Shown: positions 2,855 through 64,000 of the stretch, in pieces
Layout of the letters: each line of letters opens with the position of its first letter
Position numbering within the stretch: the stretch's first letter is position 1
DNA from: Tetrahymena thermophila SB210
Lineage: Eukaryota > Ciliophora > Oligohymenophorea > Hymenostomatida > Tetrahymenidae
Assembly: GCF_000189635.1 (NCBI RefSeq)
Contig: NW_002476417.1
Coordinates: forward strand, 620,001 to 684,000
Length of the DNA: 64,000 nt
Direction of reading: 5' to 3'
Translations under genes and position numbers: made by a program
Notes under the pieces: model-generated
Told to the model about the DNA's origin: nothing
Seen by the model: the letters and a program-made list of their open reading frames with translations, nothing else
Database searches by the model: none

Positions 2855-5249
2855 TCATAAATTCTTTATTTTTCTATAAAGTAATTTTAATTTAAACATG
2901 AAAACAAGTATTAAAATTAATAGTAATATCAATATGATTAAAATCATCCAGAGTTAATTCAATATTTTTTATTGTATTTCTATATTTTTAGATGGTAATT
3001 AATGTTTAAAAATTTAACTTAAAGGAGCTATTAAGGTTGAATTATTAATTTAGATATAAATTCTAAAATACTCAAACTATTTGTCATCTTCTTTTCGAAT
3101 TTACATCTGTATATTTTAAAAACAAGTCGTAGTTATCTCATATTTTATGCTATCTTTGATCTATTTCAACTTTAGTAAATATTCCTTGAATATAACTATA
3201 TTTTAATTATTCTAAAAATATATATTAACTTTAAAGTAAAACATATTAAATTTAATATTAATTAAAACTACTTACTTCTATATTGTTGAAGCCATTCGTA
3301 AACTCTTAAGAAATAGAGTGCTCACTTGTTGAAAAAAAAAAATAAATTTTTTAATTTTGTAAGCCCAAAATATCAATATCTTTAATTATTTTATTAATTA
3401 ATTTAGTGCTCTCTATTTTAAATTTAAAAGTATTAGACATTAGGGCATATTCATAAGCAGAACTATTAAAGTCTCCATAAGACTCTTGTATATTACTGTA
3501 ATATTTTATTTTTATATGTATTGATACATTCTTATTGTTTACGTCTAAGAAATAAAAAATTTTTTAGAAATAGATATTTTGATGAACCTCAATTAATTCA
3601 TAATTTACTTAGTTATCTTCAATAAAAATATTATCAATTTTATGTGGTACCATTTTTTGCTATTCTTTTGTTATTTAATTTTAGTTATTTTATAAAGAAA
3701 TTATTAGGTTTTAATCTGGTAGTCTACTTAAGAGCAATAATTTTGGTTCCTAAAAAGTGTTGAAGCTCATTTAATTTCGATAAATGTTAGTAATAGAGAA
3801 TTATTTTTCTGATAGAATGAGTGTCAAAAGTATATTAGTAGTTGGCTCATAATTATAAATCTCAATATATTTAACATTTTACAATTAAAAAACTTTTACT
3901 TCTTAGCTTGATTAGAAGTAAAACCTGTGTAAAAAATATCCACTCTACATATATCTTACTTCAAAAAGAACTGGTTTTTCTTCAATTAATTGATATTCTA
4001 AGTATAAATAAGAATTTGTGTCACTCTTTTCTACTTCGAAAATCACATATTCATTTTGATAATTATTTTAAGAATTTATTTGAATATTAAAAGCCTAGTT
4101 TATTTTCAACTATTAAGTTAATCTTTCGTCAGTTAAAATACTTCCTGTAGCATTTTAATTCAATTAATTGCCTTCATTTTAATATATTTGCAAACAAATT
4201 TATTTTTACTATTGCAAGGAATTTTAAATTAAATCATAAAATTGATTTTTATTTAATGATATTTCAGGATAGAGAAAGACATAAGTGTTGTTAATACTTT
4301 TCAATTTATTTTATAAATCAAAGCTAATATCTGTTATTTAATTCTCTTGAGAAAATTAAAAACGCTATGAGCAAAAATAGATCTAAATATTTAATACATT
4401 TTGATGCTAAATCTTAAAAATTCTATTTTAGTAAAAACTCTCAAAGACATAGTTTTAAAAAACCTACTAGTTTAAAGTTACATTTTCCTAATTTATGAGA
4501 TTAATATGACTATATTCAGTTGCCATGAATAAAAATTATTTTGCATTGAAATTTGAGCTTGCTTTTAAATAAAGATAAAGAAATTCAGTATTTTTGACAA
4601 CATTATTTTCTTTAGTTAGCACTCCATCAATTTATGGGAATATTTGTAAATTAGGTTGAGAGCATTCTTCAATTTTAAGATTATAATTTGATAGCCAAAA
4701 ATCAATATAAAACTCATTTTAATTACTTTATTATAAAATTTAATAATTTCGCATCTTATTTATTGATAAAATTATCCATTAATTAGATTTTATTTTAAAA
4801 AGCTTATTTAAATATATAATTTATACTTCTTAATCTATTGCCTTTACTTTTAATTTTTATTAAAACTTTTAGTAATCTTATGCATTTTTTAAAATATAAA
4901 TTGTTAATAAAGCTTTTTAAGTGTAAATATAGGAACCATTAGTACAATTAAATTACTCAAATATAAAGTCTGAATTCTCATTTTCCAAAATAACTTGAAT
5001 AATTTTATTTGTTGAATTAGACAATAAAAGTGTATAGGTTGACATTTCGACTTCTATTTCTTAAATATAGCTTTCATTACCTATTATAAAAAAATAAATA
5101 AACTAAACAAAGGTAAATTATACCATGCATTCTCATTAATTAAACCATTTTAGAGAATTTTAAGAATTTTTTCATTAAGACTAAAGGTCAATTTTTGTGA
5201 AAAAACATTTTTTATTAAATGGCCTTAATTAATTAGAATGGACAGTAAG

Positions 5250-5300
<51 letters not shown>

Positions 5301-8002
5301 GCTTTAGTGTATGATTTATCTTATACAAAATTTTTTAAAATTTACAAAAAAATTATTTTTTAAAATCTGGAATTGAAAAAGAAATAAAAATGAATTATTT
5401 GTAAGAAAATGCTACTTAAATGAATTTGTTTTTGAAAGTTAACATCTTCTTGGTATAAAGCAAGACATATTTCTTGTCCTCTAATAATCGCCTAATTGTA
5501 AAATTTTTTATTAAATTAAAAAGCTTCAAAAGCAGTTTCAACATCTAATGAATATATTTTTGATAATTCTTCTTAGTCGAATATTCTAGTATAAATATAT
5601 TAAAGTTTTCTATAATATTCTGATTATTAGGAGCTACCCCAGCAATAAATAAGCAAATTACTTTTAAAAAAATAGTTATCTAAAATATTATCATTAAGAA
5701 ATTAATCGTCTTATTCATACAAGTATTTATAGTAAACTTAAATCGGGTTAATATAGGTGGTATCACAACAAAATTGAATATCCACACTTTATTCATTTAT
5801 TTGAATGTTTTTATCAAGCCAAATTGTTAATTTATCAAGAGATTAATTAATTTTTTAAATGTGAATCAAGGGTTTATTTTATGTTTAAATAATTTTATTT
5901 TATTGTAAATCAATATAAACATTAATTATATTTTATTTAAATTGATTAATGTTTATTTAAATTTTTCTTTCAAAATTAAAATTATAAATTTAAATTTTAC
6001 TATCAAAATAGTTTCTTTTTAAGCTTAATTATGTTAGATTCATACATAAAATAACTATCGGATCTTCTTGCCAATTTTATTCAATAATTTATTTTTATAT
6101 GTAATATAGATGGTGGTTGCTTGATAATATAGGGCTAAAATAGGTTACATTTTATGATATTTTACCTAAAATTGTAGATAGACTTTAGAAATCATAAAAT
6201 AACTCAATAATAAAATCATTTTCTTTAAATTCTTTTGGCAAATAAAATTTAATTACTTTATTTTTTGATTCTATTTTTTGTTTAAACACTGTATTTCTAT
6301 TTGAAACATCACTAAATATAATATCTTCTAAATAATCTATTTCTTAAAAAGAGAGTGAATAGTATATTTCCAGATGATATATAAAATCACTTGAGTCAGC
6401 CTAGCTATCTAGAGTTATCGATATATCTTAGTTCTCAGTTTGCTCTATTACTTTACACTTTAATTTAATAAAAATTATTAATTGGCTTTACAAAATTTCT
6501 TTATTTATTAATTACTTTATCAGAATATCTAATTGCTAATCTTTTTTTAATTTTTTGCTGATTAAAAATATTTAATTAAATAGGATACGTACTTGTTTAT
6601 ATCTTATTATAAATTTAACCATAAAGCTAATTCAAGTTATCATATGATATTTTAATCCTCATTAACTTATAGCTAACAAATCCAGCTCCTATTTAATAAA
6701 TAAATAAATTAATTAATCAATTCTGTATAAAATTTAAAAAATAAATTCTACCCTCAGCAATTAAGTATTTGTTTTCATACTAAAATAGAGACAAATTTTC
6801 TTCATAATTAATGCAAACATTTCCATTTTCATCTACTTAAGCTTATTTTAAATTTTAACTGTAATCTTTATTATCATCAAAGAGTTTATCAGAAGACCCA
6901 TAAGATATATTAATATCTTATCCTTTTAAATATAGGCATATAGCATGGTCAATTAAAGCTTTGTTTAAACTTAAATTTAGACTATTTTTTTTTTAATATA
7001 AATACTCTAAATAATATTCTTCAACTTCAAAATCTTATTAAATTTTTAGATAAATTATATTTGATTCTTACTCGCAAGTTTGTATAAAATAAAAAAAGGG
7101 AGATTTAACTTTATAATAAACATTAGAAAGCAATTTGTATTATTAATAATTATAACTAATGAAACAACTACCAATCACATAAATATGAGATGTTTCTAAA
7201 TTTTAATAACCTTAATTATAATAAATGGGATGTTATAAGTTTTAGAGTTCATCTATTATAAGGCTTAAATTTTTGGTATATGAAATAATGGTAAAATCCA
7301 ATTTTGTACAGCCATTTTTCTTTATCTCGAAAATGTAGTAAGTCACTCCATATTTAGTTATTTTACTACATTGTTTTATATCTTATACAATAAATACATA
7401 CTTTAATTCTTGTGAATACATAAGCAAGTAGGTTTTAAATTCATACAACATTTCATACTTAATTTATAAAACTGGTTTTTATACCTAAATCTTTATGTTT
7501 TAAGTTTTACCTATTATTTAAAATTATTGTTAAAATTTTAAGTTATTTTAGAATTATTTTTACTTTATATATAATATTTAAACTTATCTAATAAAATAAG
7601 ACTTCTTGCTCTACATTAATCTCCCAAACATTTTATTTATACAATCAAAATGGAATATTTCTAAAATAGCTTAGTTTAGCAAAAGTTATTTTCTTTATAC
7701 TCATTCTCAAAGCAAATTTCTTACTTTTCCTAATAATTTATCCCTAATTCGTTGTATGTTATCCAAAATTGAGTAGAGAATTAGCTGCAAGATCCTTCAT
7801 CTTACAATAAATAAAAAAATGTATAATCTAATGATAATAATTGATTAATAATAATTTTATAAGATATAATCTCTCCCTTAAAGAACGTAGGAGAAAGTTC
7901 TACTAAATAATCAACATCCTCGCTATTCATTTCAATAGTTTTTTATAGGCATTAAGAGACTTGAAGCAGCAAAAATAAAGTGAAAAAGATTGAAATAATC
8001 AT
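2855..8002 (-). CDS. Large type I membrane protein, subfamily A, copy 1 (spliced)
   Basis: The most diverged subfamily A copy. Its start MIISIFFTLFLLLQVSQC is a clean signal peptide. An in-frame ATG seven codons upstream (8023) is an alternative start. Residues ~35-45 read LVELSPTFFKGE, matching LVEYSPKFYEGE in A2. The superfamily cysteines follow: QDEGSCSQF, EICFENE, NNFC and IKCLGDQC. The last intron is at about 3212-3275. The last exon has the conserved EYFRIYIQ strand, then a helix (WMILIILILLLILILVFMF), a basic tail (KLKLLYRKIKNL) and TGA at 2855. Role inferred: a cell-surface or endomembrane protein with a very large lumenal or extracellular part. I do not know the domain fold. An AAAT-type repeat at 5251-5300 lies inside the gene, probably in an enlarged intron. 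I did not map every interior intron, so hidden frameshifts cannot be excluded. Confidence 0.72.
5251..5300. repeat. (AAAT)n microsatellite, about 12 units
   Basis: An uninterrupted run of AAAT/AATA units lies within the A1 gene. At the corresponding place A2 has a 64-bp intron (13009-13072), so the repeat is most likely inside an expanded intron of A1. A low-complexity coding insert is less likely. Confidence 0.9.
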
Positions 8003-8023
8003 CTTATCATTTGTTTAAATCAT

Positions 8024-8824
8024 GTTTTGCATATTAATAAATAAAATTAGGAAATACTTTAATTAGTTATTATTAATATATTAATTAGCTTTTAATTACA
8101 CTCTAATTAGCAATTAATAAATCATATATTAAACTTAATAAGTATTTTAGCTATCTTACAAATTAATTTTTACAATGAAATAAAATTTCTTAATTCCATA
8201 ATCAATTAGTCAGCACTATTACATTTAAAAATTTAAAATGGAGTAAATTTAGTTCAAAAAGCTTTGTAAAATAAATAAAATCTAAAAATTTTCAATTTTT
8301 AAAAATATGATTTAGAATTAGTTATCAATCATAAATATTTATTTATATTTTTAGCCAAAATGATTTTTTAGACAATTTTAAATGCAATACGAATTAAAAT
8401 TTAATAGATAATAAATTCCTTTTTTTCTTTTATTTTATTAAATATGTGAGACAACAACTAAGTAGTTATTATATATTTATTTTATTTATAAAAATCCCTA
8501 ACACTTTAATTAAATCATCAAAATTAATAATTTTTATTCTACATTTTTTTTAAAATTTGATTTTATTTATTTAATAATGAAAAATATAAAAACAAACAAA
8601 AAATAATTTTTAATTCTAATTTTGTAAAAAAATCATTTTTTTTTCCAAATGAAAGTGAAAAAATTTTATTAATTTAAAAATAAAAAAATAATAAGAAAGA
8701 ATGAAAATGATAAATTAAAAAAATTAAATTTATTAATAAAAAAACAGAAATTAAAATTATCAGTAAAGTTATACGAACATTGATAAAATAAAAACCATAA
8801 AAAGAAAAATATTATATATTTCGT
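8024..8824. other. Intergenic, A1 to GST gene
   Basis: About 800 bases of AT-rich sequence between the 5' end of A1 and the 3' end of the glutathione transferase gene. I see no coding frame, tRNA-like block or notable repeat. It presumably carries the A1 promoter. Confidence 0.5.
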
Positions 8825-9436
8825 TCATAAAATTGGATGACGTCCTTCAGAAATATAAGATGCAATTTATGGGATTGACTCAATCTTTTCTTTAAGAGCA
8901 TCAAAGGTTCCTGCAAATTCTTCATATTGTTCTGGCATAAAGCTTTTGAAATTTCTAGCAAAACTTAAAAAGTAAAGATCTGCAACTGTAAAGTATCCTA
9001 GCAAATATTCTTTATTCTTGAGGAATTTGTGAATGTCGTTAGCTTTAGGTAGGATTTAGCAATTAAATATCTTTAATTTTTCTTCTCCTTATTTTTAAAA
9101 TACTTGAAAGAGGCTGGTACAAAGATCAGAGAAGATATTCCTTAGATTATCAACTATGAATCTATCTGACTCTTTGCCTAAAAGTTCGCTCATATTCAGT
9201 TTATTCACTAAATAATCGAATATAGTTTCACTTTCTGTTAGTTTCACATCTCCATCAATCAGATAGGGTAAATTTGGGAAAGGCAAGTCTAGAGAGTATT
9301 TATCTTTTCCAAACCACTAAGCAGGATCAGTGTATAAGGTTTCTTAATATTCAACACCAGAAATCTCAAGTAAATATCTAGAAGGTTAAACCTTACCAGG
9401 GCCTTTCCAATATCCAATAGTGATTTTTTAAGACAT
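8825..9436 (-). CDS. Glutathione S-transferase, mu-type
   Basis: A single-exon frame of 203 residues, against about 218 for typical mu-class enzymes. The N-terminal thioredoxin-like domain begins MSQKITIGYWKGPG, with the catalytic-type tyrosine in the IGYW motif. It continues with RYLLEISGVEY, TDPAQWFGKDKYSLDLPFPN, LPYLIDGD and KLTESETIFDYL (the cis-proline NLPYLIDG loop and the glutathione-binding SE, usually QS). The helical C-terminal domain carries the N-capping box (YFTVADLYFLSFA), and the protein ends SEGRHPIL at TGA 8825. The family conjugates reduced glutathione to electrophiles in the cytosol as a dimer. The gene is unrelated to its neighbours and sits alone between A1 and A2 on the same strand. 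Its coding sequence is less AT-rich than theirs. The start at 9436 puts the tyrosine in the usual position. Confident in family; the exact class and substrate are inferred. Confidence 0.93.
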
Positions 9437-10830: not shown

Positions 10831-13800
10831 TCATAAAGATTTTGAATTGTTTTAAAGATTTTTGATCTTAATAAGAAATGTATAAATTAGCAGTAGCAAA
10901 ATTATTAAAATTATAGCCAAAATAAATATTTATTATTGGATTTTATAGAGCTTGTTTTTCGTATTAAGCTGTCTTGGCTATTAAAAAATTTGGCTAATAG
11001 GAATAATCATGCTTGAATTGCTAATTTAAATGTATATCCTAAAGTATTACTGCACTTCATAATTACTCCAAATATTTAATTAAGATTTCTAAAATTAAGT
11101 GGTGGTTATCTCATATTCTTAATCAATTTAATTTATTTCCAATACTTTTTCCTTAAGAACAACTAAGTTTTGATATTACTAAAAATAATTTTACTAAATA
11201 TTAAATAAAATAAATATGATATTTATTTACATTTACTGAGTTTACACCATTTAAGTACTCTGAAACCAAAGACAGCTTATTTTTCGAATATAAAAAATAA
11301 AGGTATTTATTTTGCAAATTCTAAATGTTAAAACCTTTCATCGATTCAAATAATAATTTATCAATTTTAAATTTGAATATATTTTAATTTTAAAAAAATT
11401 GCAATGTTTAGCTTTCTTCTTCGTTATTTTTATTTCCAAAATAATAATTTTTATTTATAGAAATACTAATTTTGTCATCCGATACTTCTAATAAATAAAA
11501 TTATTTCTCTAACTATGTTTAAGAGCTTATTTGCTTTATAGTATAGCTTACATTACTACAAAAAATATAAATATTTTTAGGAGAATGAAGTTCAAGGGCT
11601 TACTCTGAGATTTTTGTTGTTGTATTTGAACTATTTTATAAATAAACCACGATACTTTAATTTTCAAATCTACTTAAAAGCAACAAAAATGGTCCTTTTA
11701 AAGAATTTAATTAAATTTTATTTTGATAAATGTTAATATTTTAAAATTGTACTTTAGATAGTATAAGAATCAAATCTAAACTCTTATTCTACTAGTAGTT
11801 GTATATTTCAAGATATTTTAAGCTTTACAATTAGAGCATATGAATTTATTGATGTTATTGAAAGTAAAATCTCTAAATCTAAGTTTTATTAACTAAATTT
11901 CTTAATTCAATAAATACTGGATGACCTTCGATTGACTTGTATTCTAAGTATAAATAGTGATCATCATATTTATTTTCTACTTCTAAAATAATGTATTAGG
12001 TTTCAGAATTTAGTTAAATGTTAAAAGTTTGATTTAATTCTAATTTCTAAATTATTTTTTCTTCTTTTTCTTTTTAAATTACCCCGAATGAAGTTTAATA
12101 ATAATATTATTCTATTTGTAAGCAAAATTTATCTGATTCTAGCCATTAATCCTAACTTGTAGTGTCATACTCATGTTATTCAGCACACATTTCAGGATAA
12201 ATGAAAATATAAGAATTTTTAATATCATTTTAATTTATTTAAGATTCATCTTAAATAATATTATTTTGTCTATGTTAAATACTTTTCGTATAAGTTTAAC
12301 ATTTGGAAATTTAAAAATTCAAAGTATTTGAATAAGCCATCTTAAACACTTTTCTTTGGTATTTAATATCAAATAAATAAAGAGATAAAGTTTGCTTACT
12401 AAAGCTAATACTTTTGTGGTTAATGAATTCTATTTTATTGTAATATCTCAGTTTGAATTAAATGTTTTTATTATCGAAACCTGGACTAGCTTTTAAGTAA
12501 AGAAACTTAAAATCTTTATTTCTGATAATGCTATTTTCTGGAGTTAATGCACCATCAATATTTGAATTTAAATTTTAATCAAATTTAGTGCATTTATAGA
12601 ATAGTAACTCATAAGTCGATAGCCAATAGTCGATTTAAAAGTTATCTTTTTAATTCTCAACAGTAAGTTAATAGTAAAACATTTATTCTATTTGAAATGC
12701 AATCCACTCAGAAGATACTATTTCGAAAGCTTGTTCTATTTTACAAAGTTCAACTTTTTAATTTATGATAGTTATTTATAATTTTCTAATAGCGAATGTA
12801 TAGTCATTTTCAAGTCTAGTAAAAAAGATAATCACTTCTTTATAATTTGAATAAAACTACGATGATCCCTTGCAACTATAGTCATTTATAGAAAAATGAT
12901 AATCATTTGAAAATAATTCAAATTAAATAATTTTATCTTAAACACCAACAAGCTAAATATTTTGATAAGTGAAATCTAAATCTATCACTTAAACGTAATT
13001 TATATCATCTTTTTTGAAGAAAAAAATAATAATAAATTTAAAGAAAAATGTAAAATAATTCTTGGAAATTACCTATAATAAACAACTTATATTCAGATAA
13101 TTAAACAAATTAATTTTTAAATAGAACAAGGCATAATTCGGTCTCTCTTTTTATTGGTTAATTTACCTCTTTTGGTGTAAATTTGAACATATCTTTTGCA
13201 GACTAATTGTCTTATTGATAGAAAGTTTCAAGTTCTTCTTCAGTATATATTCTTGCATAAAGCAAAGCTGAGTATCTATAATATTATTATGATAAAGAAT
13301 CACCCCAACAAAATACGAAGAATATTTCTTGATCTGCAAAAAGTATATTTTACATTACTAAATTTTCAATTAATTAGTTTTATTGTTCATACAAATATTT
13401 GAAATAAACCACTAAAGGATTTTCATAAATCTAATTACAGCAAATTCTTATCAATATATTTTCTGAATTAATTGAATAATCTTAATTAATTTTAAATCTT
13501 ATTTTAACTAATGATCCATAAATGTTTTCAATTTAAAAATCAAAATTTGATTAAATCTTTTCTATTTTTTCACTTTATAAAAGTAAATAAATAGTATTAT
13601 TTCTTAAAAATAACTGCCTAGCATTAATACTTATCACTTAATCAAAATTAAAGTTGTAAACTTATATTTTATCATTAAATAAGTTCTTAATTAACAAAAC
13701 ATCTTTTAAGCCAGTATAAGAAATAATTAAAGGATCATCTTTACAATATATATTTATCTTTTCCTTGTTAATAGTTAATACTTTATCGTAACCAGAATAG

Positions 13801-15992
13801 ATAGGAATAATATATTCGCCTTCTTAACAATTTATTGTAAATATAGTATATTATTAAACTTATTAAAAAATAATTACAAATTAATTATTTTTAAGCTCTT
13901 CAGGTAAATAGATTTTATGCATTTATGTGTATCCATATTAATAGTATTGAAAGTTTGTGTTAAAATATGTCTTACTATTCAAAAAAAAATTATCGTTAAA
14001 TTCTAATATACTAAATTAGGAATAATAATCTATATTTAAATCGTAGATGCTATTAATCGAAGCCATCTAACTTTCTATCTTGATTTGTTAAATAAAATCC
14101 TCTAAATAGATCATCTAGCACTATATTTATTAAAAAAACTTAAATTAATCAAATAAATTAACTTTATTTTACTGAGTTAGGTTATTTAATTACAAATTTC
14201 ATCTTTATGTACTAACTTTTAAAATACAAAGGATATTCATTTTGTTTAATTCTTAAACCATATTGTCCTTAATTAGGTTCTTTTTGCTAAAAGTAAATTT
14301 CTTTTACAAAATATTCATATTCAATAACACCTTTACCTAATTTATATACAAATTTAAATTCATATTAATATATTTATTATCTATCCTCACTAATTACTAC
14401 ACCAATCATTTAAAAAATATTTAGGCTACTACAACCAATATTTTCAAGAAGATTAATTTGGTTCTTTAATTAAGGATACCCTATCTCCGAAATTTTGTAT
14501 TAAATTTTATCTTTATCCAAAATAAAAAATGGTCTTAATTAATATTTTAAGGAAAGATCAGAATATATTTTAAATTTTACATTATTTTTACATTTGGTTA
14601 TGACTTTTTAATCAATACTCTTAATAAATAAATATGGTATTAATCTCAAATTTTTATTCTATAAAATGTATATGGTAAGAACTAAATCTAGTTTTAACTA
14701 ATGAGGATTGTAATAAATTGTTTCTTATAAAAATGATTTACCAATTGCAAATATGTATTAGTAAGTATCAATGCATGCATTTCCTTTCTAATCTATCTGT
14801 AGTTACTTAAATTAACTGTTAGTTTTAAGATCATTTTTTAGACTATCAAAATCAAATTAGTCATTGTTATTCACGTAATATATTTTAATATTTTAATCTT
14901 TTAAATAGAAGCAAATAAAATATGTACCAGAAAAGAAAGCTAAATTTTATTTAACTTAAAAGGGTAAACTATCATGTTCAGAGATTGTTAAAAATCTCTA
15001 TTCTATTTCAAAGGCTAACTATTTATTTAATAGAAGTATATTAGATTCGATTCCGCATAAGTATTGAATTTAATCTACTCCTTTGTTAATATTAAGTTAA
15101 TAAAATATATTTTAATCTAATTTGTATTCAAATTAATCATAAATTATTTTGCATTATCCTATGACAAATATATGGCTATAAATATATTTAATTGATTATT
15201 AAGATATTATATCAAGATTAATAAGATAATCTAAATATAAAAGCAAGCTGTTATATTTTGAAATTACAAAAATGGAAATATCCTCTTAAATGCAATTTAG
15301 ATTTGATATTTCTAAAATGTAGGAAATAGACCCATATCTATTTATCTACATACATTTATTTTACCCATAAAATATATCCTTAATATCTTAAGAGTGAATT
15401 AATAAGTATTTTTTAGAGTTTTTTATTACATTATGATTAATCTTAAAAATTGGTTTATATACTTCTATTTAATCTGGTGCTATTTATTTTAATGAGTTAA
15501 TAAATTTCTTTTTAAAGATTTTATTTTAAAATTAATTTTACTTTATAAATTATAATGCTCCTAATCTATAAAAAAATGATTTCTAAGATAGCATGATTAA
15601 CTAATACAGTTTATTTTAATTCTAATCTTTTTATAGTTTTGTTAAACTTAAAATATGCAAACATTATTTTCTTTGAAAAAGCTTTCTCTGCATATTTCTT
15701 CTTCCAAAATATCATCTTGTGCTTATCTTACAGTAGTTAGCATGATTTAAGAAGTAAATTGGCTGCAATTTCCTTCATCTTAAGCTATAAAATTAAAATT
15801 TTTTTATATTAAGCGATCCAACTATATTAAAAAAGATATTGTTTCTCCTTCGTAGAATTTAGGTGAGTATTCCACTAAACTTTGATGTTATAAATCAACA
15901 ATTTACAATTTAATTTCTTTGCTAAAAGTTACTAAAAAAAAGCTTATGAAAAGCATCAAAAATTGAATGTTATTTAATAAAATATTTCTCAT
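10831..15992 (-). CDS. Large type I membrane protein, subfamily A, copy 2 (spliced)
   Basis: The copy I followed furthest. ATG at 15992 gives a signal peptide ending FLMLFISFFLVTFS. The N-terminal module has LVEYSPKFYEGETISF, AQDEGNCSQF, EEEICRESFFKENNVC and ISQSCYLR. After intron 1 (15480-15541) comes a long exon with motifs seen in all A copies: RYGSISYILEIS, YIYSHIFVIGQCKIIY, GTYFICFYLKDQNIKIYY, and QKGNACIDTYQYIFAIG, partly an internal echo of the HIFVIG segment. Further introns lie at 14121-14172, 13009-13072 and 11179-11230. The last exon has YFRIYIQISNSSMIIPIS, the helix IFILAIILIILLLLIYTF and tail LIKIKN before TGA 10831. If those four introns are all, the protein is about 1,640 residues. 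Function unknown; surface receptor, adhesin or antigen-like roles are all possible. Confidence 0.8.
11179..11230 (-). other. Last intron of A2
   Basis: A 52-bp intron with donor GTAAATAAATATC and acceptor TTTTTAG. Splicing joins ...GVNSVN to QYQNLVVLKEKVLE in frame. The same last intron is found in A1 (about 3212-3275), A3 (about 16975-17022), A4 (about 22251-22301) and both B genes, so it is ancestral to the family. Confidence 0.7.
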
Positions 15993-16626: not shown

Positions 16627-19600
16627 TCATAATGCCTATTTTTAATCTGATAGAATTTTTATCTTGATTAAAAATATAAAAATTAATATGATCATAAATA
16701 TTAATATTACTCCTAAAATTAAGAATTGTATTTGTAGTTCTTACAAATTAATCTCATTTTTTATATCATTTGTTTATTTAAAAATTTAGCTAAAGGGAAC
16801 AATCAAACTCTATTTATTTTTTGAAATATATATTCTAAAGTATAAAAGTTATTTCTCATCTTTTTAAAGATTTTTACAAGAATCCTAATAGAAAGAGGTA
16901 GTGATCTCATACTAGTTCTCCATTTATTTGTAGTCCAATATTTGTTCTTTAAAAATAACTAAATTTTGATTTTACTTAGAATAAAATTATTAATATTTTT
17001 AAAATAATAACAAACTATTTACCTCATCTATAATATTGGCACCATTTATAAATTCTTGCATCAATTGAATTTAGGTTTTTGAATGAATAATATATATATT
17101 CTCATCTTTTAAATCATAAATATTTAAACCTTTTATCTATTTAATTTCTGTAAAACTTATATTAAATTTAAATGTGTTCTATGTTTATGCTAAGTTATTT
17201 TCTTGAACTTATGAAAAATTATCAAAGGCAAAATAATAGCTCTTTTTGATTTAAATTTGGATGTTGTTATCTAATACTTCTAAAAAATAGAATTATCTGT
17301 TAAACAAGTTATTTGAATTTACATTTTTTATTGAATAATTCACTTTATTACTAAAAATAAACATATTGTCAATCTAATCAGTTACTGTATTTTATACCTA
17401 AGATATATTATTTGAACTATTATACAAATGAACTACTATGTTTTAATCTTCCAATCTACTCAAAAGAAACAATTATGGTCCATATTTTAAATTTATATCA
17501 ATTTTTTTTTAATAAAAATTAAAATATTCAAATTAAAATTGTGACAGAATGAGAACTAAATCTACAGTAGAATTCAAATTTTAATTGTATATCTCAAGAT
17601 ACTTAAAATTTTACAATTAAAGAAGTTAGGTTTCTTATTATTTTTGAAATTTAATACTCTAAAAATACATACTATTATTCAAATATCTCAATTCAAAGAG
17701 TGCTGGTTGATAATTAGTAGATTTGTATTCAATATACAAATAATAATTAGAGTGCTTATTTTCTGATTCTAATATTATGTATTTATTTATTTAATTTATT
17801 TATAGGTTAAAAACATAATTTAGCTACAATTTATAAGTAATTACTTCTTCCTCTTCCTCTATTTCTCCTTTAGCATTTTAATAATCTAAATTTTAATTTA
17901 TTTTTAAACAAAGCTGCTAACCTTAATTGAATTATTAATCTTAATTTTAGACATATTCTTATCCATTCTCAACACAAATTTCAGGATAAATGAATAAGTA
18001 TTAGTATTTTATTTAATTCTAATTTTTTAGAAAATCATATGTATTGTTAAAGTTCTCTTTTTATTTAACACTTCTTAAATTAGTTGAGCAATAATTAATT
18101 TAAAAATTCAGTGTTTTCTAATAGCTTATTTTAACAACTTTTCTTTAGTATTTTAAATCAAATAGATAAACAGATACAGTTTGATTACTAATATTAATAT
18201 TTTTTGCATCGATAAATCTTATTTCACTATAATATCTTAGCTTGAACTGAAATTTTGAATTATCAAAACCTGAACTTGATTTTAAAAAAAGATATTAAAA
18301 ATTAATTTCTCTTAAAATGTTATTTTCTTTAGTAAAGAAGCCATCTATTTTTTAGATTAATGGATTTATATTTTCATCATAATTACTACATTTTGAATCC
18401 GATAAATAATTATTTGATTGCCAATAATCGACTTAAAAGTTATCATTTTAGTCATCAATTGTAAGTTAATAGTTAACCCGTTCCTCGATTTCTAATAAGA
18501 CCAATTCTTAAAATTTTAATTTGAAATTTTAATCTATTTAAACTCCAAAGATTTTTTAGTTTATTATTGTTATTTTTATTTATTATAAAGTATATAAACT
18601 ATCTTAAGTATTTCTTTTATAAGATATAGTAGATTATCTTTTGTTAGAAAAAATTTATGTAGAACCATAACAATGTTGACCATTTATGTTGTAATAATTA
18701 ACATTATCACTTAGTGTAACTTAAATAATCTTTTCATTTGTGTCACTAAGATAAATATACTCGTAAAATGCATCTAATTCTATCACTTAAACTAACTTTT
18801 TACTATCTTTTAAAATAAGTAAATAATATAAACATTAATAAATTAATGATTAAGTAAAAGAATTATTAATATTACCCAACAAGAGTTCTTTTGATTAAGC
18901 TATTTCAGCTTATTTATTTTTAAGTAAGAGTAGGCATATTTCTGACTCCCTTTCTATTTTTTAGTCTAAACCTTTAAAAGAAAAGTTGAATTAATCTAGA
19001 ACAGCTTATTTTTCTAGTTAGTAAAATGTTTCTAGGATTTCTTCATTTTGTATTCTTGCATAATACAAAGCTTAATATCTATAATAATATTCTTGATTAG
19101 GATAACTCCAACAAAATAAAAAGAATAATTATTATTTTTCTTCTAAATACAAATCATCAAACTATCCATCTAAATAGATTTATATATCTATATCAAGTAT
19201 ATATTTGTAATAAATTAAAATTGGAGGATCATAAATTTAGTCACAACAAGTTCTAATCACAATATTTTCTTAATCAATTTACTCATTCTGACCAATCATA
19301 AATTATATTTTTAATATTTATTGATTAATAGTTTAATTTTTAAAAGGAAAATTAGTCTCTACTTAAAGTATTTTTTGTTTCCAAATATTTATGTAAATTG
19401 TGTTGTTTCTTGAAATTAACACTTTAGTATTGATTTTAATTTTTTAATCTAGGTTATAGTTTAAAATTTATATTTAATCATTTGAATAATTCTTTATTAT
19501 ATCTAACTGTTGTACTAGATTACAGTATAGTAATAATGGATTTTAAGACCAATATTTATTAGATATTTCCTTTTGAATAAAAATAATTTAACTGTAATAA

Positions 19601-21524
19601 TGTTTTAAAGGGACAATATATTCCTCATATTAAGATTCTCTAATAAATGTAATAGTTTAAGTCATATTTTTTATTAAAATTATAAAATCAGTATTTTTTA
19701 ATTCTTGTGGTAAATTAATCTCAAACGCATATCCCAACTTTGTAAAATATGTAAATTGTGTCATTTAATTTGTAAATTTCATTTTTGGTAATTCATTATT
19801 ATATTAGAATAACTAGTAAGGAATATATTAATATATCTAAGCATTGTAGATGCCATGTGCATAACTTGTATCATAATCAAAAAAAATACTATTATGTGAA
19901 TTCATTTTCATCTCGATAATTTAGCACTTAAATTTATTTAATGTATTTCAATTAATAAACTTAATAAAACTAAATATTTTACTTTGTTAGGATATTATAA
20001 GACGTATTTTACATTGAAATAAGGGATTGTGTCACTCGTAAATTCCAAAGGTTTTAGACTTTATTTAATCCTAAGGCATTTTTACCTTGAAAAAAATGAA
20101 TAAATACTTTGAAAAAGATAGCGATTTAAGAAAATTTCATATTCAAGTATTCCTTTTCCTAGATATTATTAATAAAAACAGAATGAACTTTTGCAAAATA
20201 ATAATAATTTTTGAATGTTATTTACCTGATACTATTATTTTATAATAATTTTTATCTTCTTTATAATATTATTCATCACTTATACATGCATATCCTCTCT
20301 AATCTTTTTATAATTACTTAAAGATTTCTATCTTATACTATTCGTCATCAGAATCTAGATATTTTTAAAATTCTTCCTTTTTATTATAACCCCCATAACT
20401 TACTAATATATGTTCATCATTGAAATAGAAGCAAAGAATATGATTTGATATGCGAATTTTATCTGATAGTATATATGGATTTTACTTGCTGTGATCGATA
20501 AGGATTAAAAATTTTTCTTCAATTAGATAATCTTTTTCTTTATTTAACAATAGTATAATAGATTCCTTTTCACATTCATATTTAATTTTATTACCCTATT
20601 CATAAATGTTGAATGAGTAGAAAACATTCGCTTCTAATAAATGCTCATACTAACTATAAATAATTTTGCAATTTCCAATTACAAATAAATGGCTATGAGA
20701 GTATTAACTTTTAATATTTTTAGTAATATCATTCAGACTTACAAGATGATTAAAGGAAATGTTTAAATTATTGCATTTAGAAATAATCAAAATTATAAGC
20801 TCTCTTTAGTAGCATTATTGTTGTTTTGATATTTCTAGTATAAATGAAATCGATCCATATTTATTTATTTATACACAGTCATTTAGTTAGTGTTCAAAAA
20901 ACATATCTTTTATCTCTTAGGAATTAATCAAAAAATATTACTTAATATCCTATTTTAAATTATATTTAATCTAAAAAATGGGTCTTTCTATATTTATTGA
21001 TCCTTCTACATGTATATCTAATATTTAATTTATTTAATTTTCATTTTATTTTTAAAATGTATTTACTTACATTCAAATCTAATTTCAGCTTATTAAACAA
21101 AAAAGTTGCTTCTAACAAAACAACTTTTGCTCACACATTTTATTAAAATTTTGAACAAATGATTATTATTCAAAAGTTCAAATTTGCAAAAATTATTTTC
21201 CTTGAACATACTTTCTTTGCATATTTCCTGATCATAATTATCCACTTATGATGATTAAATATTTTCTTATATAATCTAAGTTAAAAATTAACTGCAATTC
21301 CCTTCATCTTGAGCTATGAAATAAAAATATGACTTCCCTAAACTTTATATTGATAGCTTATAAGTTAGGGTTTCTCCTTCAAAGAAACGAGGAGAGTATT
21401 CTACTAACTCATGATATGTATTTTGATTTATTTGTAGTTAAATTTCAGAGCATACACTTGCTATTAAAAGACCTAAAATAGTAGCTAAGAATTTGTAGTT
21501 ATGTTAAGTAGATATTTATATCAT
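16627..21524 (-). CDS. Large type I membrane protein, subfamily A, copy 3 (spliced)
   Basis: ATG at 21524 gives a signal peptide with the core FLATILGLLIASVC. LVEYSPRFFEGETLTY, FIAQDEGNCSQF, EICKESMFKENNFC and IKCVSKSCFVR follow, so the full cysteine motif is kept. Introns: 21018-21070 (GTAAGT donor), 20159-20225, and the last one about 16975-17022. The second exon has KYGSISFILEISK, HSHLFVIGNCKIIY and ILCFYFNDEHILVSY, parallel to A2. The last exon encodes LYFRIYISKNKQSLIVPFSQIF, the helix FLILGVILIFMIILIFIFLI and a short basic tail, ending at TGA 16627. Predicted topology: large lumenal or extracellular part, one membrane span, about 15 cytoplasmic residues. It shares only moderate similarity with A2 and with A4-A6, so it is an older duplicate. 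Function unknown. Confidence 0.77.
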
Positions 21525-32468: not shown

Positions 32469-32750
32469 ATTTTGTACTTTAATTAATTGTTAATAATTTG
32501 TTTAATAAATTTGATTTTAAAGATAATATAAATCAATGTAATGTGAAATGAAATATAAAATAAGTATTATTTAGTATACATATCTTAATTATCAAAATAA
32601 ATAAATACATTTAAGTATATTTGTTTAGATAAAATAATTTATATAAAAGCAAATAAAAATTTTTCATTAAAATATTTAAACTGAATTAAAACTATCTTTT
32701 TATATGGTGTATAAAAATAAATAATTATTGACTAAATTTATTTAATTTTA

Positions 32751-43967: not shown

Positions 43968-46900
43968 TCACATAAATTTTATTCTTTTAAATTTTATGAT
44001 TTTTAAAAAAATGATGATAATTATTAAAGTAATAATAATTTAGATTAAAAGAATAATTATGAAGTTATGATATGCTTTTTAAGTTTTTTCTTATAAATTT
44101 TTAAATTCCATCTGTAAACTATTATTTAAAATAGATGAGATAGGAAAAAGCTATGAATCTATTTAAAGATAGATTCTTGAAAAAGAATATTTTTTTTATA
44201 ATTATTCAAGTTATATATGAAAGCTTATTGTTATTTCATAGCTGATAATTCCATCTTATTTTTAAATATTCTAATTTAGCAATTTCTCTATTCTAATTAA
44301 CTGAGAGTTCAAATTCTATTCGTTAATAATACAAAAAATATTATTTTGATTTAAATTTTATAAAATTTACTTCAGAGCATGATAGAGCCTACATTTAAAA
44401 GTATTTAAAAAATATGGATTACTTTTTAGAAAACACAATAACAACCTTGTTACTAATCTGTAAGTTTAATTTAATAATCTCAAATAAATCTTGAGGAATT
44501 TACTAATTAAAATGTAAAAATCCTTTTCTATGATCAATAAATATTTTATTTTAAAAAGAGTTGTTTTTTAGCAAGTAGTTATTTATTTTATAATATTCTT
44601 CACTTAAGTAATATGTTGTTAAATATGAGTTTTCTGAGTTTGTTTAGAAAAGGAAATATTAGTATAATTCTTAAGATAAATCATAAGTATTTTATAGTTT
44701 TGTAAATTATATCTAATCAGTATTTGAATAAATCTAAATTTAGCTGCTGTTATTATTTTCAAGTAAATCAAATTATTGATACATATCTTCTTCAAGTACA
44801 TTTTCTATAAAAACAAATAAAACTTTATTTTCAATTACTTGTAGCAAATAATATTCTGAAATAATTAAATGTCTATCATTTACACTATCCTCAAATGCAA
44901 CTACTTAATGAGGCAGAGGAATAAAGATAATATTCATAGTTTATTCTAATTAAGAAATTATTTCATATACCTAAGAACTTATTATTTCTACACTATAAAC
45001 TGATTGCTTCATTGAAATTCTATTAAATCTTAATGAATTGTTTAAATTATCAAAATATCGAATATAAATTATATTTGAAGTTTAGCTTTAAATGTATTCA
45101 GCTCGTATTAAGAAATGTAATATAACTTTTTCATATTAAATAGTATTTATTTATAATACTTTATGTTATTGCTAAAAGTCAAATTAGTAGGCTTTAAAGA
45201 GTTACAAAATTATGTGATTTTCTTGAGTTAAACTCTCTAAACTAAGTGAAATTTGTTATTCGTTTATGTTAGAGCTACAGTATAGCATTATGCATTTATT
45301 TATATTATTGTAAAGATCATTGGTTTATAAATATTAATCTTTTCTGATTGACATTTAAGGGTAAATGTAAAAACATTATTTTAAATTTAAATTTTAAAAA
45401 TCTATCATTATATTTTCAAGTTTTATGTTATTGCTTTAAGAGCAAGTGTTTAGATATAGTTGGCAATTATTATCCATTTGATAGCAGAATATTTTATTCT
45501 TATTTTAATTCTCGAATATAAAATATTCAATTTATTCTTTTTCACCACCAAAATTAAAGTCACTTAACTTTCCAAGTAGTTTAGCTTTTATTTATGTCAT
45601 AATTGATATTTCATAACTTTTTACTCCCTCGATTTAAAAAAAAATAAATGTTTCACTAATATATGAAATCATAGTATTAGTTTCGTTTAGAAAACTAAAA
45701 TTGCTTTCATAATAATATTTTACATTTGTACATTTTAAAGGATCATCTGCTCCATAATAATACTTTATTGGTAATTCAGAATGATTATTACTTATTTAGA
45801 TTCTATATTTTACATTCATTTCACATTTAAAATAATAAACAACTTCTTATTAGTCTAAGATGTTTATTTAGTTTAACCCAATTTTTTAAAATTTAAATTA
45901 TGTAAAAATGATAAATGTTGAAATATTAATTTGTTCATAATCCTAAAGATATCTACTATTTATGATTATTTATATGTCTTTTTTATCGTGTGTATAAATC
46001 ATTAAATAACTATCTAATGTTTCACATTTATCTATCCTTACTAATTTTTTATTATACTAATAAAATTCAACTAAGTAAGTTGTAGGCAATAAAAACTTAA
46101 AGTTTCTATATCTGCCTTATAAATTAAATTTTTATGTCTTTATATCTTTATCTTTTTATAAATAAAAAAATTAAATAAATAAATATGCTTTATATCAAAA
46201 AAAAACCAAAAACAATCATAAAAATTTTTAATTTGATTACTTAATTCATAAGTTACATAGTAGTTATCAATGTTAGTAGTAGTAGTTTTTTCTGAATAAA
46301 TTAAAAGACATATTTCATTTTCAGGTTCTATGTACTAATACTCATGTTTAATACTTTAAGCGTATTTTCTTAAATCTGATTCAGGGAGTTTATTTAAAAA
46401 TATTAACTCTTTTAAAGTATTTATTCTGTAATATTTTAATTCATTTATTCTGTAATATTGAAATTTATCCTTTTCCCAGCAATAAATAAAGCAGCGATAT
46501 TAACTATAATATTAATTTAGCAAGTAATTTGATATGAAATTTTAATTAATTTCAAGAATATAACCAAATGAAATAATTATAGTTTAAATAAAATTATCTA
46601 GCTCTTAAATTTTAAAAACAATATTTTCTTATTCGATTTAATCGTTTTCTTTAACTTAAAATTAATAAAACCTTAAATTAGGAAGTTACTTAATTAACTT
46701 ATGCTGATGATAAGAAACCACTTCGAATTTTAAATCTTGTTTTTGTGATATTAATGTTATCTTACCATCTGATTTTTCTTAAATTTCTTGAGCTGGAACA
46801 ATTAACATACTATCAAAACAATATTAATAAACAATTTAATAATTTGTTTTTAATTATCTAAACAAGCTTAATTCATATATATTTGTTGTAAAGTAACCAC

Positions 46901-49046
46901 CAATAATTAAAATATCTTAAATTTTATATTTCTATCTTACCTCTTTTGTTATTAGAACTTCTTAATTTTATATACTTAAAGGGTATAAGACACCCTATTA
47001 ATAAACTACATGAGAGAATATCAAAAACTCAAAAAAAGCATTAGACTTAATTTAAATTAAAAAATCTTAATCATACTCAAGGTCCTCAGGTAACTTTAAG
47101 ATACACAAATAATCTTCATAATAGTTTAAATTTTACTTTTAATAAATTAGCAATTCATCATTAAAAAATAATTAAGATTTTTAAATATTTTAAATATCAA
47201 ATTTGTTCAAGTAGCTTATGATATCTATGTTCATATTTTATTTAAATCTATTAAGAGCTTCAATATTTAAAACCAAATCACTCTTTTATAAATCTTTCTT
47301 AAAATAAATGCATTATTTATCATTCATTTAATCTCCCTTTTTATAAAATTAGTTTAAGAAATTTATAAATAATTCAGCAAAATACTTACATGGATTCCTC
47401 TAATTTTAAAACCGAAGTTCAACTCCTATTAGTAATGACGACTAAAAAAACGTATATCTTTAATATTTTAATCTATGTAAATAACATCATTTATCTTAAA
47501 ACTAATTTTAAAATATTAATTTAAATCTATTTAGATTTTATAAAATTTTATATTAAAACTATAGTGAAGATTCTCATTATTTGGAGCTTTTTTATATTCA
47601 AAATTTTTTCATTAAATTTAAAATTTTAATAATTAAGATAGAAAAAAAAAAATTCATTAATAATTTCAAATGTAGGAACAACTATATGATTATTATATAT
47701 CTTAAATGTGATTATAAATTAAAATATAAGAAAATTAATAAATTACAAATTATAATATGGCCTTAGTGATCAAAGGAATACATTTTATCTTCAAAGCAAA
47801 CTTCTGTACCTGATTAATATATTATCTCTTACAGTTAAATCTAAGAATGATCCTTATGGTTATTTTTGATTAAATTTTGAACAAATTGATCTACTATACT
47901 CTCATTTTATGTTTAGAATTTGTAAACTCTATATCCACTTGAAATAAATTTATAACACATTATTGCATTACCTTAATAGAATGAATTGTATTTTTTTAGA
48001 AAAGCTATTTCATAGTTTTTTATCTATGAAACGTAATAAGAGAAAAACATGGGATATAATTAGAAATTTAACTAGAATAGATATAATTAGGTTTTTTTTT
48101 CACATTTTATATCAATAAATGCTTTGGATTATAACTAGATAATCTCAAATGATAATATTTTTTATTAAACTTATTCTAAAATACAATCTTCTTAGTTAAC
48201 AAAAAAATATTATTAGACTCCTATTCGACTTACTTGAGTAATCTGCTTTTCTATTACTATTACCTGGGCTTAATCAAACAGAATTTACTATCTTGGAAAC
48301 GATTGTACAACTATAAGTGTAATTTATGCTTCACATAAAATTGTATATTAAATTATTATTATTTGGTTTTAGTAAATTTAATAGCTTATGCAGTCTTCGT
48401 TTCCAAATATATCTTTTGAATAAGTTAAGATTTTATTAAATTTTCCTTGTATCATAAGAGCAACACTTTTTTATTTAGTAAAATAATGTTTTTCGAGTTG
48501 ATAAATTTGTACAAAATTATTTGTTAATTATGCCGTATTAGGTAAATCTATATTAATTGAAAAATAATTTTAAAAATAAATAATTTTTTTATTTTTTTTA
48601 CTAATGTAAGTTTCTCTTTACAATGAAAAGTAGATTTAAACTGAACATTTTTCTGATAAACATTTAATTATAATTGAGAATGATTGTTCTACTTAGTTAT
48701 CTATTTGATGCACACAAATATTGTTTTGTTAGAATTAAGAATTTCTATCACATATTCTTGATTTGCTTTATCCCTATTCTATATATGATATCATTTCTAT
48801 ATTGCTTTCACATTCTAGTGGCTAAGCGAAAATGATTAAATAATTAATGTAAGCATCCTTTTTGTATATTATTTGTGTAATTATTTCAAATTATTCTGTC
48901 TCTTGGTAGCTCAGATGTTTAGAATATTCAAATCGCTCATATAATTTTGTATTCTCAATAGGTTTTAAGTATATTTTTGATAAGTTTAATTAAATGAGGT
49001 TAAAAATTAAAAGGCTTTTTAAAAATATTTTAGAAAACTATTACAT
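43968..49046 (-). CDS. Large type I membrane protein, subfamily B, copy 2 (spliced)
   Basis: ATG at 49046 gives MQQFSKIFLKSLLIFNLIQL, matching B1 with conservative changes. YERFEYSKHLSYQETEQFEI and the cysteine motif follow. The 3' part, from about 45540 down to the stop, is almost identical to B1 (38341-39840), whereas upstream the two copies differ much more. The last intron is at 44316-44370. The last exon ends in a helix FIIILLIQIIITLIIIIIFL and tail KIIKFKRIKFM, TGA at 43968. As in B1, ignoring this intron gives a false stop (44236) and a protein without its anchor. Predicted surface or endomembrane protein; function unknown. The mosaic similarity to B1 suggests gene conversion of the 3' end. 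Confidence 0.78.
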
Positions 49047-55042: not shown

Positions 55043-55422
55043 CTCTACTTAAAAACCTTTCTTAAAAGATATTTTATATTTGTATTTCCAAATTAATTAT
55101 TTGATTAAATTAAGTTAATAAGAAATTATAAACAACAAATTTATTTCAAATTTATGCACTATTAAGGAAATATCAAAAATAAATTACAGCTATATTAGAA
55201 ATTATTTCAAATAAAAAAAACTATAAATATTTCAAAAAATAAAAAATAAAATTAAATGTTTTAACTATTAAAATATTAAAATTATAATTCAAATTATTAA
55301 TAGTCAATAAAAAATTATTTTTTTATATTAATCAAAAGGTTTACAGTATAAAAAAGTTCAGTTTTTATTTACAAAAATTATATTTTTTATTTTAAAGATA
55401 AAATTAAATTTCAAACTTTAAT
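55043..55422. other. Intergenic, C1 to C2
   Basis: About 380 bases of AT-rich sequence. Stretches next to the C2 stop resemble those next to the C3 stop (about 61430-61533), e.g. a shared ACAGTATAAAAAA block near 55345 and 61435. Nothing else was seen. Confidence 0.5.
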
Positions 55423-60892: not shown

Positions 60893-61533
60893 CTTTATTT
60901 TTAAAATAAATTTTATTAGAAAGAGTTATTTTTTTGTTTATATATTTATTTATATTTCCAAATTAAATATTTGACTAAATTAAATAAGTTAATTATAAAT
61001 AGAATTCAGATCAAGTAAATTTTAAATTTATGATTTTGTAAAGATATGTATTTTTAATTAGCTTTATCAAATAGTATGTAATATTTAAGTAATTATTGAT
61101 ATTAAAATTTATTACTAAAAGATTAAAAAAAAGAAAATGTTTTAAATAGAACTATAAAATCAATTAAATATAATTTTCTATTTTAATATCCAATCAAATA
61201 ATAGATACAATATCCAAAATAAAAATTTGTAACAAATCATATTAAAGATTTTAAAATCATAGCTAATTTAAAATCTATACAAATAATTAGATGAATACGT
61301 ATATTTTATATACTTGCTGCTCTTAAATATTATAAAAAACTTATTAAACTAAATATATTCCTTTTATATTCGATTTAATTGTAAAAAATAAAAAAATTCT
61401 CTAAAAAATAAAATTTTTTTTTAAGGAAAATATTACAGTATAAAAAATTTAAGTATTTATTTACAAAAAATAAATTTTTTAGTTTTAGTTTAATAATTTA
61501 TTTGAAAGATATAATTAAATTTCTAACTGTAAT
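60893..61533. other. Intergenic, C2 to C3
   Basis: About 640 bases of AT-rich sequence. The end next to C3 resembles the C1-C2 gap. No frame, RNA gene or notable repeat was seen. Confidence 0.5.
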
Positions 61534-64000
61534 TCAGAGTTTAACATTTCCAACATTTTTAATGAGTATTGCTATTATAAATAGCAATAATATTAAAAGC
61601 AAAAATAAAATTGAAAAAATAGATAATAGACTTTCTTTTTTTACCCTCTACTTAACTATTTTTTGCTTGATCAAATAATCTTAAGATATCTCTATTATTG
61701 GGCTTATTGGGATGATTATATTATTTGTTTTAGATTTAAAGTATATCCTAATAAATTAAGAGTTTTTTTTAGTTAATATTTAATTAATCACTTCAATTTC
61801 ATAGCTAAGTTCATTTATATTTTTTTAATATTCAAATTTGACTATTTAAGAATTTATTACAAAATTAACTTTCTCCATCTTTTTATTTTATTTATTTAAT
61901 TATAAATGGTTAAAATATTAATGATTAATTATAAAAAATTTACTTAAAAAGCTTATTATGATAGTTACATATACTTTTGTAATTGATATTTCTCTTTTGA
62001 ACTAATAACAATAAATTCATAATTATTTATTGATTAGATATCTTCTTTTAGATACTCTAAAACTTTTTCATCAACAGCATAGTTAAAAATTTTAATGCTT
62101 AATTCATAAATATTTTTTTAACATATTTGATAATTCATTTTTTAAATTGGATTGCTAGTTTCTTCTAAAAAAGTATCAATTAAATTATAATATGCTTTTT
62201 ATTTGACATAATGTACATAAATTGTTATAAATTTTTTGTTTATAACTTTAATTATATATCCGGCATTTTAATTAGATTATTAAAATGGAATATTATTAAT
62301 TTCAACATCTATGCTTAGATTATATAATAGAATATTATGGCTATCTAACTTAATCTTATTCATTTAATTCCTGTTTTCGTCCTCTAAGTATATGATTAGA
62401 TTAAAACCCATTTTTTCTTAAATAAAAAATTATTAATTGTCAATAAAGTTTAAGTGCTTTGATTCTTAAATAACTGAATAAGATTTTCCTTAAACTAAAA
62501 GAAAATTGAGTTAAGTTAGACTCTTAAATATATCAATCTCGACATATTATGCTTTTCCTAAGTTTATTTCCTAATTTTGATTATTTTCGAAAATTAAAAT
62601 ATTCTATTGCTATTTATCATTATAGAAGAATCTGATAGAAATTATCAATTGAGGAGAGTAGGAATATTAAAAACTATTGCTTATTATCATTAGAATGTTA
62701 TTGTTATTGTTATTATTATGATAATTATCTAATTTTATTAAAAAGTAAGTACTTTATTCTTTTTTTGAACTGAGTATTTCATCTAAATTTAAAATCTCAT
62801 TATAATTTAAATGAATAATTAAATCTTCGTTTTCTTAAAGTAAAAAATAATTTTTTTAATTTTATTTTTCATAGTCCATTTATTTTTATACAACCCATAT
62901 GCACATCTTTTAGAGATTTGTTTCTTATTTGAAATCCTATTTTATAAATAGAATGAGAAAAATTTTTATTTTTTTAAATATTTAAAAAATCACATAATTT
63001 TTTTTTATTAATTATCATGTATAATTTTGAATAAGAATTAAATTCTAGTTTTTATTAAATATTGGACCAAAAAAATTTAATCAAATGTCAATCGTTTTTA
63101 GAAAATAAGAAAAATAATTATTTGACTAATTCTCTTAATAGTTTTCCTTTTATCAGATTAAATTATTTTATCTATCTTTTATTTTAAATTTTATTCTATT
63201 TTAAATTCTTATAATAAAAATTTGAAATAAATAAAAAAGTACATCTTAGAATTTCTTAATTTAATGGTCAAAGCTTTTCTCTGCAAATCTGAATAATTTA
63301 TTTACATGGATTGTTAAATCAAATTTCTTTAAATCATAAAGCATTTTATATTGCTTAAAATTGTTTTTTTCAGTAGTTTCGATTTCAAAATAATTTAAAT
63401 TCTCAAAGCAAGGTATAAAAAATAAGTCCTAATTTTAAATGCTAATTTTAATAAATTATTCTTTTTCTTCTCTTTCATTAAAGAATATAAACATTCTTTA
63501 CTTAGATAGTGTATTTTCTTAATTTAATTTAGCTCTTAGACGCTCATAAATCATAGATAATTTTATAGAATATTCAAACTCAAAATCTAGAGGATAAAAA
63601 AAACAAAAATTGTATTGTTCTTCAGTATAAATTATTGAATTATCCTAGCTAATTTACCAATTTTTATCATAAGTTTAGTTTATAGCAAATAATTCAAAAT
63701 GACTAAGATCAGAAATTTCGAACCAATAATGCATTATCGTTGAAGAATTATTACTTTGATGATTACTCATTTAAATTTTATATTTTGAATAGGGTAATAT
63801 TTAAAATTTAAAAAAATCATTTTTATCACTAATTTTCATTGGATAATACATCTTTAAACTATGTACAAATATTAGCTTAAATATTATTTTCATATCCAAA
63901 AATTATCGCCTGTACTAATAGCTAGGTTTGTTGTTTAACTTCAGATATTTTTAACTGCTTAAACAATCTAATAAAAAGTTTTGACTTTAATTCGAAATTT
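61534..64000 (-). CDS. Large type I membrane protein, subfamily C, copy 3 (5' part beyond window)
   Basis: Only the 3' half is present; the start would lie roughly 3 kb past the right edge, judging by C2. The last exon gives IPISPIIEIS, DYLIKQKIVK, the same hydrophobic helix as C2 with few changes, and a tail KNVGNVKL at TGA 61534. Further in, segments such as the exon around 63240-63420 match C2 at 57240-57420 closely. The copy shows no obvious break in the parts sampled. Same predicted role as C2: single-pass membrane protein with a large extracellular or lumenal region and unknown function. The array may well continue outside the window. Confidence 0.72.

Follow-up and report, generated by a model that had tools for sequence, protein, structure and literature searches.

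Tandem, fast-evolving families of surface-type proteins are of a kind known in Tetrahymena (excerpts of PMC6564038 and PMC4136848). The Ser (i-antigen) proteins are surface proteins that are often encoded in tandem arrays of one subtype. MTA and MTB and their MRC partners are membrane proteins of large size whose extracellular part is long and diverged; in the excerpted text of PMC10901506, MTA and MTB are given five membrane helices, a growth-factor-receptor domain and head-to-head genes. The species-specific tandem gene clusters of Tetrahymena are marked by tandem duplication and fast evolution (PMC6564038, in excerpt), and the SID-1 proteins, which have extracellular beta domains, are described with 9-12 predicted membrane segments (PMC3324469, in excerpt). 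We report an eleven-gene tandem array of giant proteins in Tetrahymena thermophila SB210, found in a stretch of 64,000 nucleotides (the window: C130:620001-684000, in an assembly of 101 Mb in 445 contigs). The genes belong to three diverged branches, A1-A6, B1-B2 and C1-C3, and a second locus on another contig holds two more full-length copies, D1 and D2.

The tandem paralogues expected of a diversifying tandem family of surface proteins are present, eleven in a row together with a relic, and the architecture of their products differs from that of each system named above. Ser proteins are built of cysteine repeats and anchored by glycosylphosphatidylinositol (GPI), whereas the array proteins end in a membrane helix and a tail that holds basic residues, and no internal repeats were found by profile self-comparison; a GPI-type C-terminus, with its hydrophobic stretch reaching the very end, was seen in none of the eleven, as judged from the layout of the tail. 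Ser proteins repeat blocks of 6-10 cysteines, and some likeness to these may exist, as 11 of the 13 models pack 6 or 7 cysteines into a segment of 120 residues. MTA and MTB have five helices, but the array proteins have one strong helix each and their genes all lie on one strand; no Pfam match to the growth-factor-receptor cysteine-rich domain was obtained in the A4 model, in 25 and 15 exon pieces or in two branch consensus sequences, a set that covers exons 4-6 of the C branch through the consensus only. The same scans gave no leucine-rich-repeat (LRR) match and, although the LRR clusters of Tetrahymena resemble the array in tandem duplication and fast evolution, they have 90-bp exons (PMC6564038, in excerpt) where the array genes have six main exons. 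The likeness to the extracellular domains of SID-1/SIDT is a weak one: in low-confidence models, the beta-sandwich layout predicted for two separate regions resembles theirs; the array proteins have a single strong C-terminal helix instead of a multi-helix membrane domain, and no sequence likeness to SID-1/SIDT was found. A literature search by words, not by sequence, turned up no paper on the family among the texts and excerpts returned.

An earlier note on this DNA had proposed an eleven-gene, one-strand array of giant membrane proteins, and the spliced models predicted with the ciliate code bear this out: eleven minus-strand genes, each of 1,511-1,648 residues, span positions 2855-66880 in window numbering, and their order along the chromosome tracks branch membership. 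From left to right these are A6 (2855-8023, 1511 residues, one 4-residue exon doubtful), A5 (10831-15992, 1648 residues, of which about 110 extra in exon 2 may be unspliced intron), A4 (16627-21524, 1534 residues, six exons and the clearest model), A3 (21894-26935, 1536 residues, six exons), A2 (27450-32468, 1538 residues, six exons, exon 4 being ended by reference to A3), A1 (32751-37793, 1520 residues, the end of exon 4 likewise set from A3), B2 (38263-43340, 1535 residues) and B1 (43968-49046, 1555 residues), both of six exons, C3 (49730-55042, 1609 residues, exons 1 and 2 fused, probably across an in-frame intron), C2 (55423-60892, 1564 residues, exon 5 in two parts, a split that recurs in the remaining C and D models) and C1 (61534-66880). 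The window holds the 3' part of C1 (61534-64000), which extends 2,880 bases beyond the right edge, and the row is interrupted by one foreign gene, a GST gene of one exon in its model (8825-9436, minus; Pfam GST_N and GST_C_3), between A6 and A5. A1 is possibly disrupted: its exon 2 has a one-base gap relative to A2 and A3, which the model crosses only by a 32-nt pseudo-intron and which may reflect a pseudogene or a fault of assembly.

The G+C content of the window is 17-21% in 2-kb steps. When TAA and TAG are read as glutamine, minus-strand frames open up to 1,106 residues, and dozens of in-frame TAA and TAG codons lie inside exon matches; NCBI table 6, with TGA as the only stop, was used throughout. 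Genes were predicted with a purpose-written hidden-Markov model with exon, intron and intergenic states, trained on the window and then on the surrounding 144 kb, in which each copy was forced from its own start to a stop behind the membrane helix; tails and some false introns were mended by homology afterwards. An extra intron in exon 4 of A1-A3 was considered but not kept, since A4-A6 have coding sequence there. All gene models are predictions without transcript support and, since the gene finder can bypass a stop by way of an intron, a stop-free model is no proof of an intact gene. Doubt attaches to the frame of A1, exon 2 of A5, exons 1-2 of C3, the small exons in both A6 and C1, and the mid-part of D2.

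The predicted proteins have a common plan. By a 19-residue Kyte-Doolittle mean, a single C-terminal membrane helix is present in all eleven window models (mean at least 3.15), followed by a tail 9-16 residues long, of which two or more are basic, and by eye D1 and D2 have the same layout; B1 and B2 have one extra, borderline hydrophobic stretch near residue 211 (means 2.03 and 2.29). This layout suggests that the proteins lie at the surface. A common signal peptide, as earlier claimed, is putative: an N-terminal hydrophobic stretch exceeds the cut of 1.9 in 4 of the 11 (A5, A6, C1 and C2) and is seen by eye only in the other seven. Ten cysteine columns are invariant across all 13 models (A4 residues 102, 113, 130, 199, 220, 300, 347, 396, 1064 and 1124), eight of them within about the first 400 residues and two membrane-proximal, out of a total of 23-27 cysteines per ~1,500 residues. 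The four-cysteine motif described in the earlier note (A4 residues 102, 113, 130 and 135) is the front of a larger framework, with its first three cysteines in all 13 models and its fourth in 10; the three models that lack the fourth, C1, C2 and D1, have an uncertain exon junction at that place. The last exon, for which homology had been proposed from an RIY strand and a P-x-S turn, does keep these residues throughout the family (R, Y and S in 13 of 13; I and P in 12).

Six main coding exons recur across the family, of about 165-1,800 nt in A1-A4, and the introns between them keep their place and phase. In residue.phase notation they lie near 150.1 (in every model but C3), 415.1 (in every model but A5), 474.0 (all 13, shifted in A5), 824.1 (12 of 13, with phase 2 in the B2 model and with A1 and A2 taking the position from A3) and 1419.0. 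The last of these, whose common position had also been noted earlier, is in phase 0 in all 13 models, although it was placed manually in A1, A3 and A6, guided by homologous splice sites, and tails were merged in A4, C1 and C2; false introns behind it were taken out of D1 and D2, and other extra small introns were taken as errors. Exon 5 is split in phase 0 at about residue 1080-1170 in all five C and D models and in none of the eight A and B models.

The branches were supposed to be one family, and they align with low-complexity sequence masked: between-branch BLAST on early models gave 5e-8 for A3-B1, 1.7e-8 for A6-C3 and 2e-4 for B1-C3. Comparison of branch profiles gave a probability of 97.2% for A-B (E 3e-11, 556 columns), of 51.0% and 37.6% at collinear places for A-C, and of only 27.0% for B-C, in the N-terminal part; reversed controls (n=6) reached no more than 0.6%, and four large neighbouring proteins, presumed unrelated, gave no more than 0.7% in 12 comparisons. 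Since the direct B-C match is weak, the link between these two branches leans on A and on the common introns. From the collinear profiles, the failed controls, the ten cysteine columns and the common intron positions and phases we conclude, on the predicted sequences, that A, B and C are homologous. A tree, in which D1 and D2 stand as versions before tail correction, splits C+D, B and A and makes A1-A3 recent copies; its branches are long and its deep order is unsure.

No named domain had been recognised in the extracellular part, and this stood under Pfam scans of the set given above, NCBIfam (25 pieces) and PDB sequence profiles (three alignments), none of which gave a credible domain. Hits to TIGR04561 (3.7e-4), DUF4064 (0.0014) and the MG_279/MG_280 family (0.0028), in 1-3 of the 25 pieces, were set aside as probable hydrophobic-helix matches, and a likeness by eye to the pre-peptidase C-terminal domain gained no support from Pfam. 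Structure prediction yielded two models that are mostly beta, of low confidence, and no confident fold match among the non-viral folds searched; the weak matches to SID-1/SIDT and other beta-sandwiches are, on such models, leads only.

A feature of the B pair is that the 3' part of B1 (43968-45090, minus, upper edge approximate) is near-identical to its B2 counterpart (38263 to ~39370). The tract covers about 1.0 kb of coding sequence in the last part of the gene, where the last three full 300-nt blocks hold 5, 6 and 3 differences against 15-68 earlier; the pair shares an identical run of 258 nt, where the longest in 300 permutations was 114, and its introns are 87, 74, 84, 92 and 96% identical from first to last, with flanks at 77-78%. 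Judged from these alignments, a recent gene-conversion tract lies over the membrane-proximal quarter of B1/B2. In C1/C2 the last two full blocks hold 18 and 14 differences against 20-60 earlier, a fall that the A pairs lack. Identical runs of 135 nt in C1/C2 and 120 nt in A1/A3 lie above all 300 permutations, and those of A1/A2 and A2/A3 were matched or exceeded in 12 and 26 of 300; as the permutation ignores uneven constraint, we claim conversion for B1/B2 only.

The whole-gene M0 omega is 0.449 in A1-A3 (1,412 codons), 0.504 in B1/B2, 0.451 in C1/C2 and 0.354 in C1-C3, compared with 0.196 and 0.246 in two controls from the same contig, a TerD trio and an aldo-keto reductase pair (named by eye). 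Intron divergence (0.12-0.22) is close to synonymous divergence (dS, 0.16-0.19, from earlier models), so that dS is a fair neutral yardstick. Within A1-A3, omega is 0.387 over residues 0-390, 0.653 over 390-890 and 0.305 over 890-1500. The fast middle, at about 390-890 of A1, comprises late exon 2, exon 3, exon 4 (the counterpart of A4 exon 4, 18876-19926, minus) and the beginning of exon 5. Model M2a improves on M1a by 21.4 there, with 17% of sites assigned to a class whose omega is 5.2, and by 0.9 and 0.0 in the flanks. Codons variable in amino acid and synonymous-only ones stand at 160:31 in the middle against 196:100 outside (odds ratio 2.6, Fisher p 1.6e-5), with the proviso that the limits 390 and 890 were picked after viewing the site posteriors, so that the regional p-value depends on the very data it tests. 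Over the whole gene, twice the log-likelihood difference (2dlnL) of M2a over M1a is 16.8, a value reached in none of 60 plain null simulations (highest 7.3). Neighbouring differences occur in excess, inside codons as well as across their borders, and a null with double mutations near the observed adjacency (163-167 in-codon adjacent differences in three trial sets, 156 observed) also failed to reach 16.8 in 70 sets (highest 15.9). These simulations covered A1-A3; for C1-C3 the corresponding value is 22.5, and for the TerD control 0.24.

The explanation that we place first, with a confidence slightly short of even, is that of a lineage-specific family of single-pass binding proteins of the cell surface, or of the secretory pathway, that is diversifying. 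The ectodomain would be a chain of beta-sandwich modules, with the variable middle as the contact surface for an external partner, whether prey, competitor, symbiont or other cell; as the tail is too short for signalling alone, the proteins would act by binding and adhesion or via a partner protein, and duplication and conversion would keep the anchor and scaffold alike while the binding faces diverge. A more ambitious version, which we regard as improbable, is that of a recognition repertoire invented by ciliates, in which the giant ectodomains, thirteen in number, would be built of beta modules in an architecture not yet described, perhaps as strings of SID-1/SIDT-like domains freed from the transporter; constraint, joined in at least one pair by gene conversion, would keep scaffold and anchor alike while a central face diversifies. 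That the chain on its single anchor is of SID-1/SIDT type and serves as a receptor for the uptake or capture of RNA or lipid is very improbable. The proteins might instead serve cell-cell recognition in conjugation, for mating or self-recognition, with one specificity per copy. Their large size, surface-type layout and diverged branches would suit this, as would the position of D1 and D2 around a large gene (L046; C33:118529-123905, plus) whose cysteine repeats and several membrane segments, seen by eye, give it a layout like that reported for MTA/MTB in the excerpt of PMC10901506. However, the single strong helix and the missing growth-factor-receptor match are unlike MTA/MTB, the six MRC partners differ in layout (same excerpt), and L046 has no Pfam match at 0.01 within its first 523 residues, which leaves a role in conjugation unlikely.

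The serious rival to diversification is relaxed drift, which we hold to be possible but somewhat less probable: a structural or housekeeping membrane family of the cortex, vacuole or other organelle, undergoing neutral birth and death with occasional conversion, its middle a tolerant spacer. Several observations weigh against diversifying selection, and a number of these speak for drift. Overall omega is below 1, and no binding domain was recognised. The A1-A3 signal is gone after dropping the 121 of 1,412 codons with at least two nucleotide differences, a step that also deletes the sites that have changed most, and a double-mutation null at twice the rate (mean 227, exaggerated) reaches 16.8 in 4 of 45 sets. 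The regional tests in C1-C3 are weaker and not limited to the middle (0.0, 8.7 and 8.1). An ordinary control pair scores 8.3 in the pair test, so that the pair results (B 50.5, C1/C2 19.2) are not to be trusted. A possibly broken A1 together with an exon-1 relic is a pattern as in neutral birth and death. Finally, the array's coding scores (0.104-0.132 per codon) are among the weakest of 33 predicted genes of at least 200 residues in the 144 kb, which may reflect low expression; three other large genes score in the same range. Set against drift are the stop-free models, each of ~1,500 codons, for D1, D2 and all ten array copies other than A1 (intron-skipped stops being possible), the invariant cysteines and common splice phases, and the odds ratio of 2.6 and the omega 5.2 class in the middle of A1-A3. 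Of the selection for diversity that the earlier note had suggested, what is supported is that change gathers in the middle third of the A1-A3 ectodomain, and its formal signal is lost without the multi-difference codons; we read the A1-A3 pattern as a probable, though unproven, sign of diversifying selection. If the family of diversifying binding proteins is real, it would add a further diversified surface repertoire, with a new ectodomain architecture, to the GPI-linked Ser antigens of a genetically tractable ciliate, and offer a handle on what use surface diversity is to free-living protists. Should the copies merely be drifting, the family would still be a clear example of tandem expansion accompanied by gene conversion, with a fast region of defined limits.

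The expansion is local and reaches past the window. A whole-genome search with single-protein queries (pieces of A4, A6, B1, C2, C3 and D1) found 13 models at two loci and one relic; more distant copies may lie beyond the reach of such a search, which used no profiles. D1 and D2 occupy C33:111041-116262 and C33:125024-130277. The relic is exon 1 of a C-type gene upstream of C1, at ~67217-67639 in window numbering (minus), matched by C2 in tblastn over ~67418-67633 (E 1.7e-10) with the front of the cysteine motif kept. To the left of the array, two minus-strand frames (2-391 and 1696-2502) have no Pfam match at 0.01 and may not be genes. A scan for RNA families and tRNAs found none in the window, and a ciliate telomerase RNA match (162 bits) lies on contig C67; it is of Tetrahymena type, its letters agreeing with those of the T. 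thermophila RNA. Left of the window, six related plus-strand genes, each coding for 528-588 residues, form a row (C130:597781-613924); the first 200 residues of one match Pfam TerD, and two aldo-keto-reductase-like copies, named by eye, stand beside and among them. This locus supplied the evolutionary controls. Three further large plus-strand genes, of ~1,180-1,680 residues, lie at 92273-109419 in window numbering, and two of these resemble, by eye, a gene at C130:615095-619596 to the left of the window.

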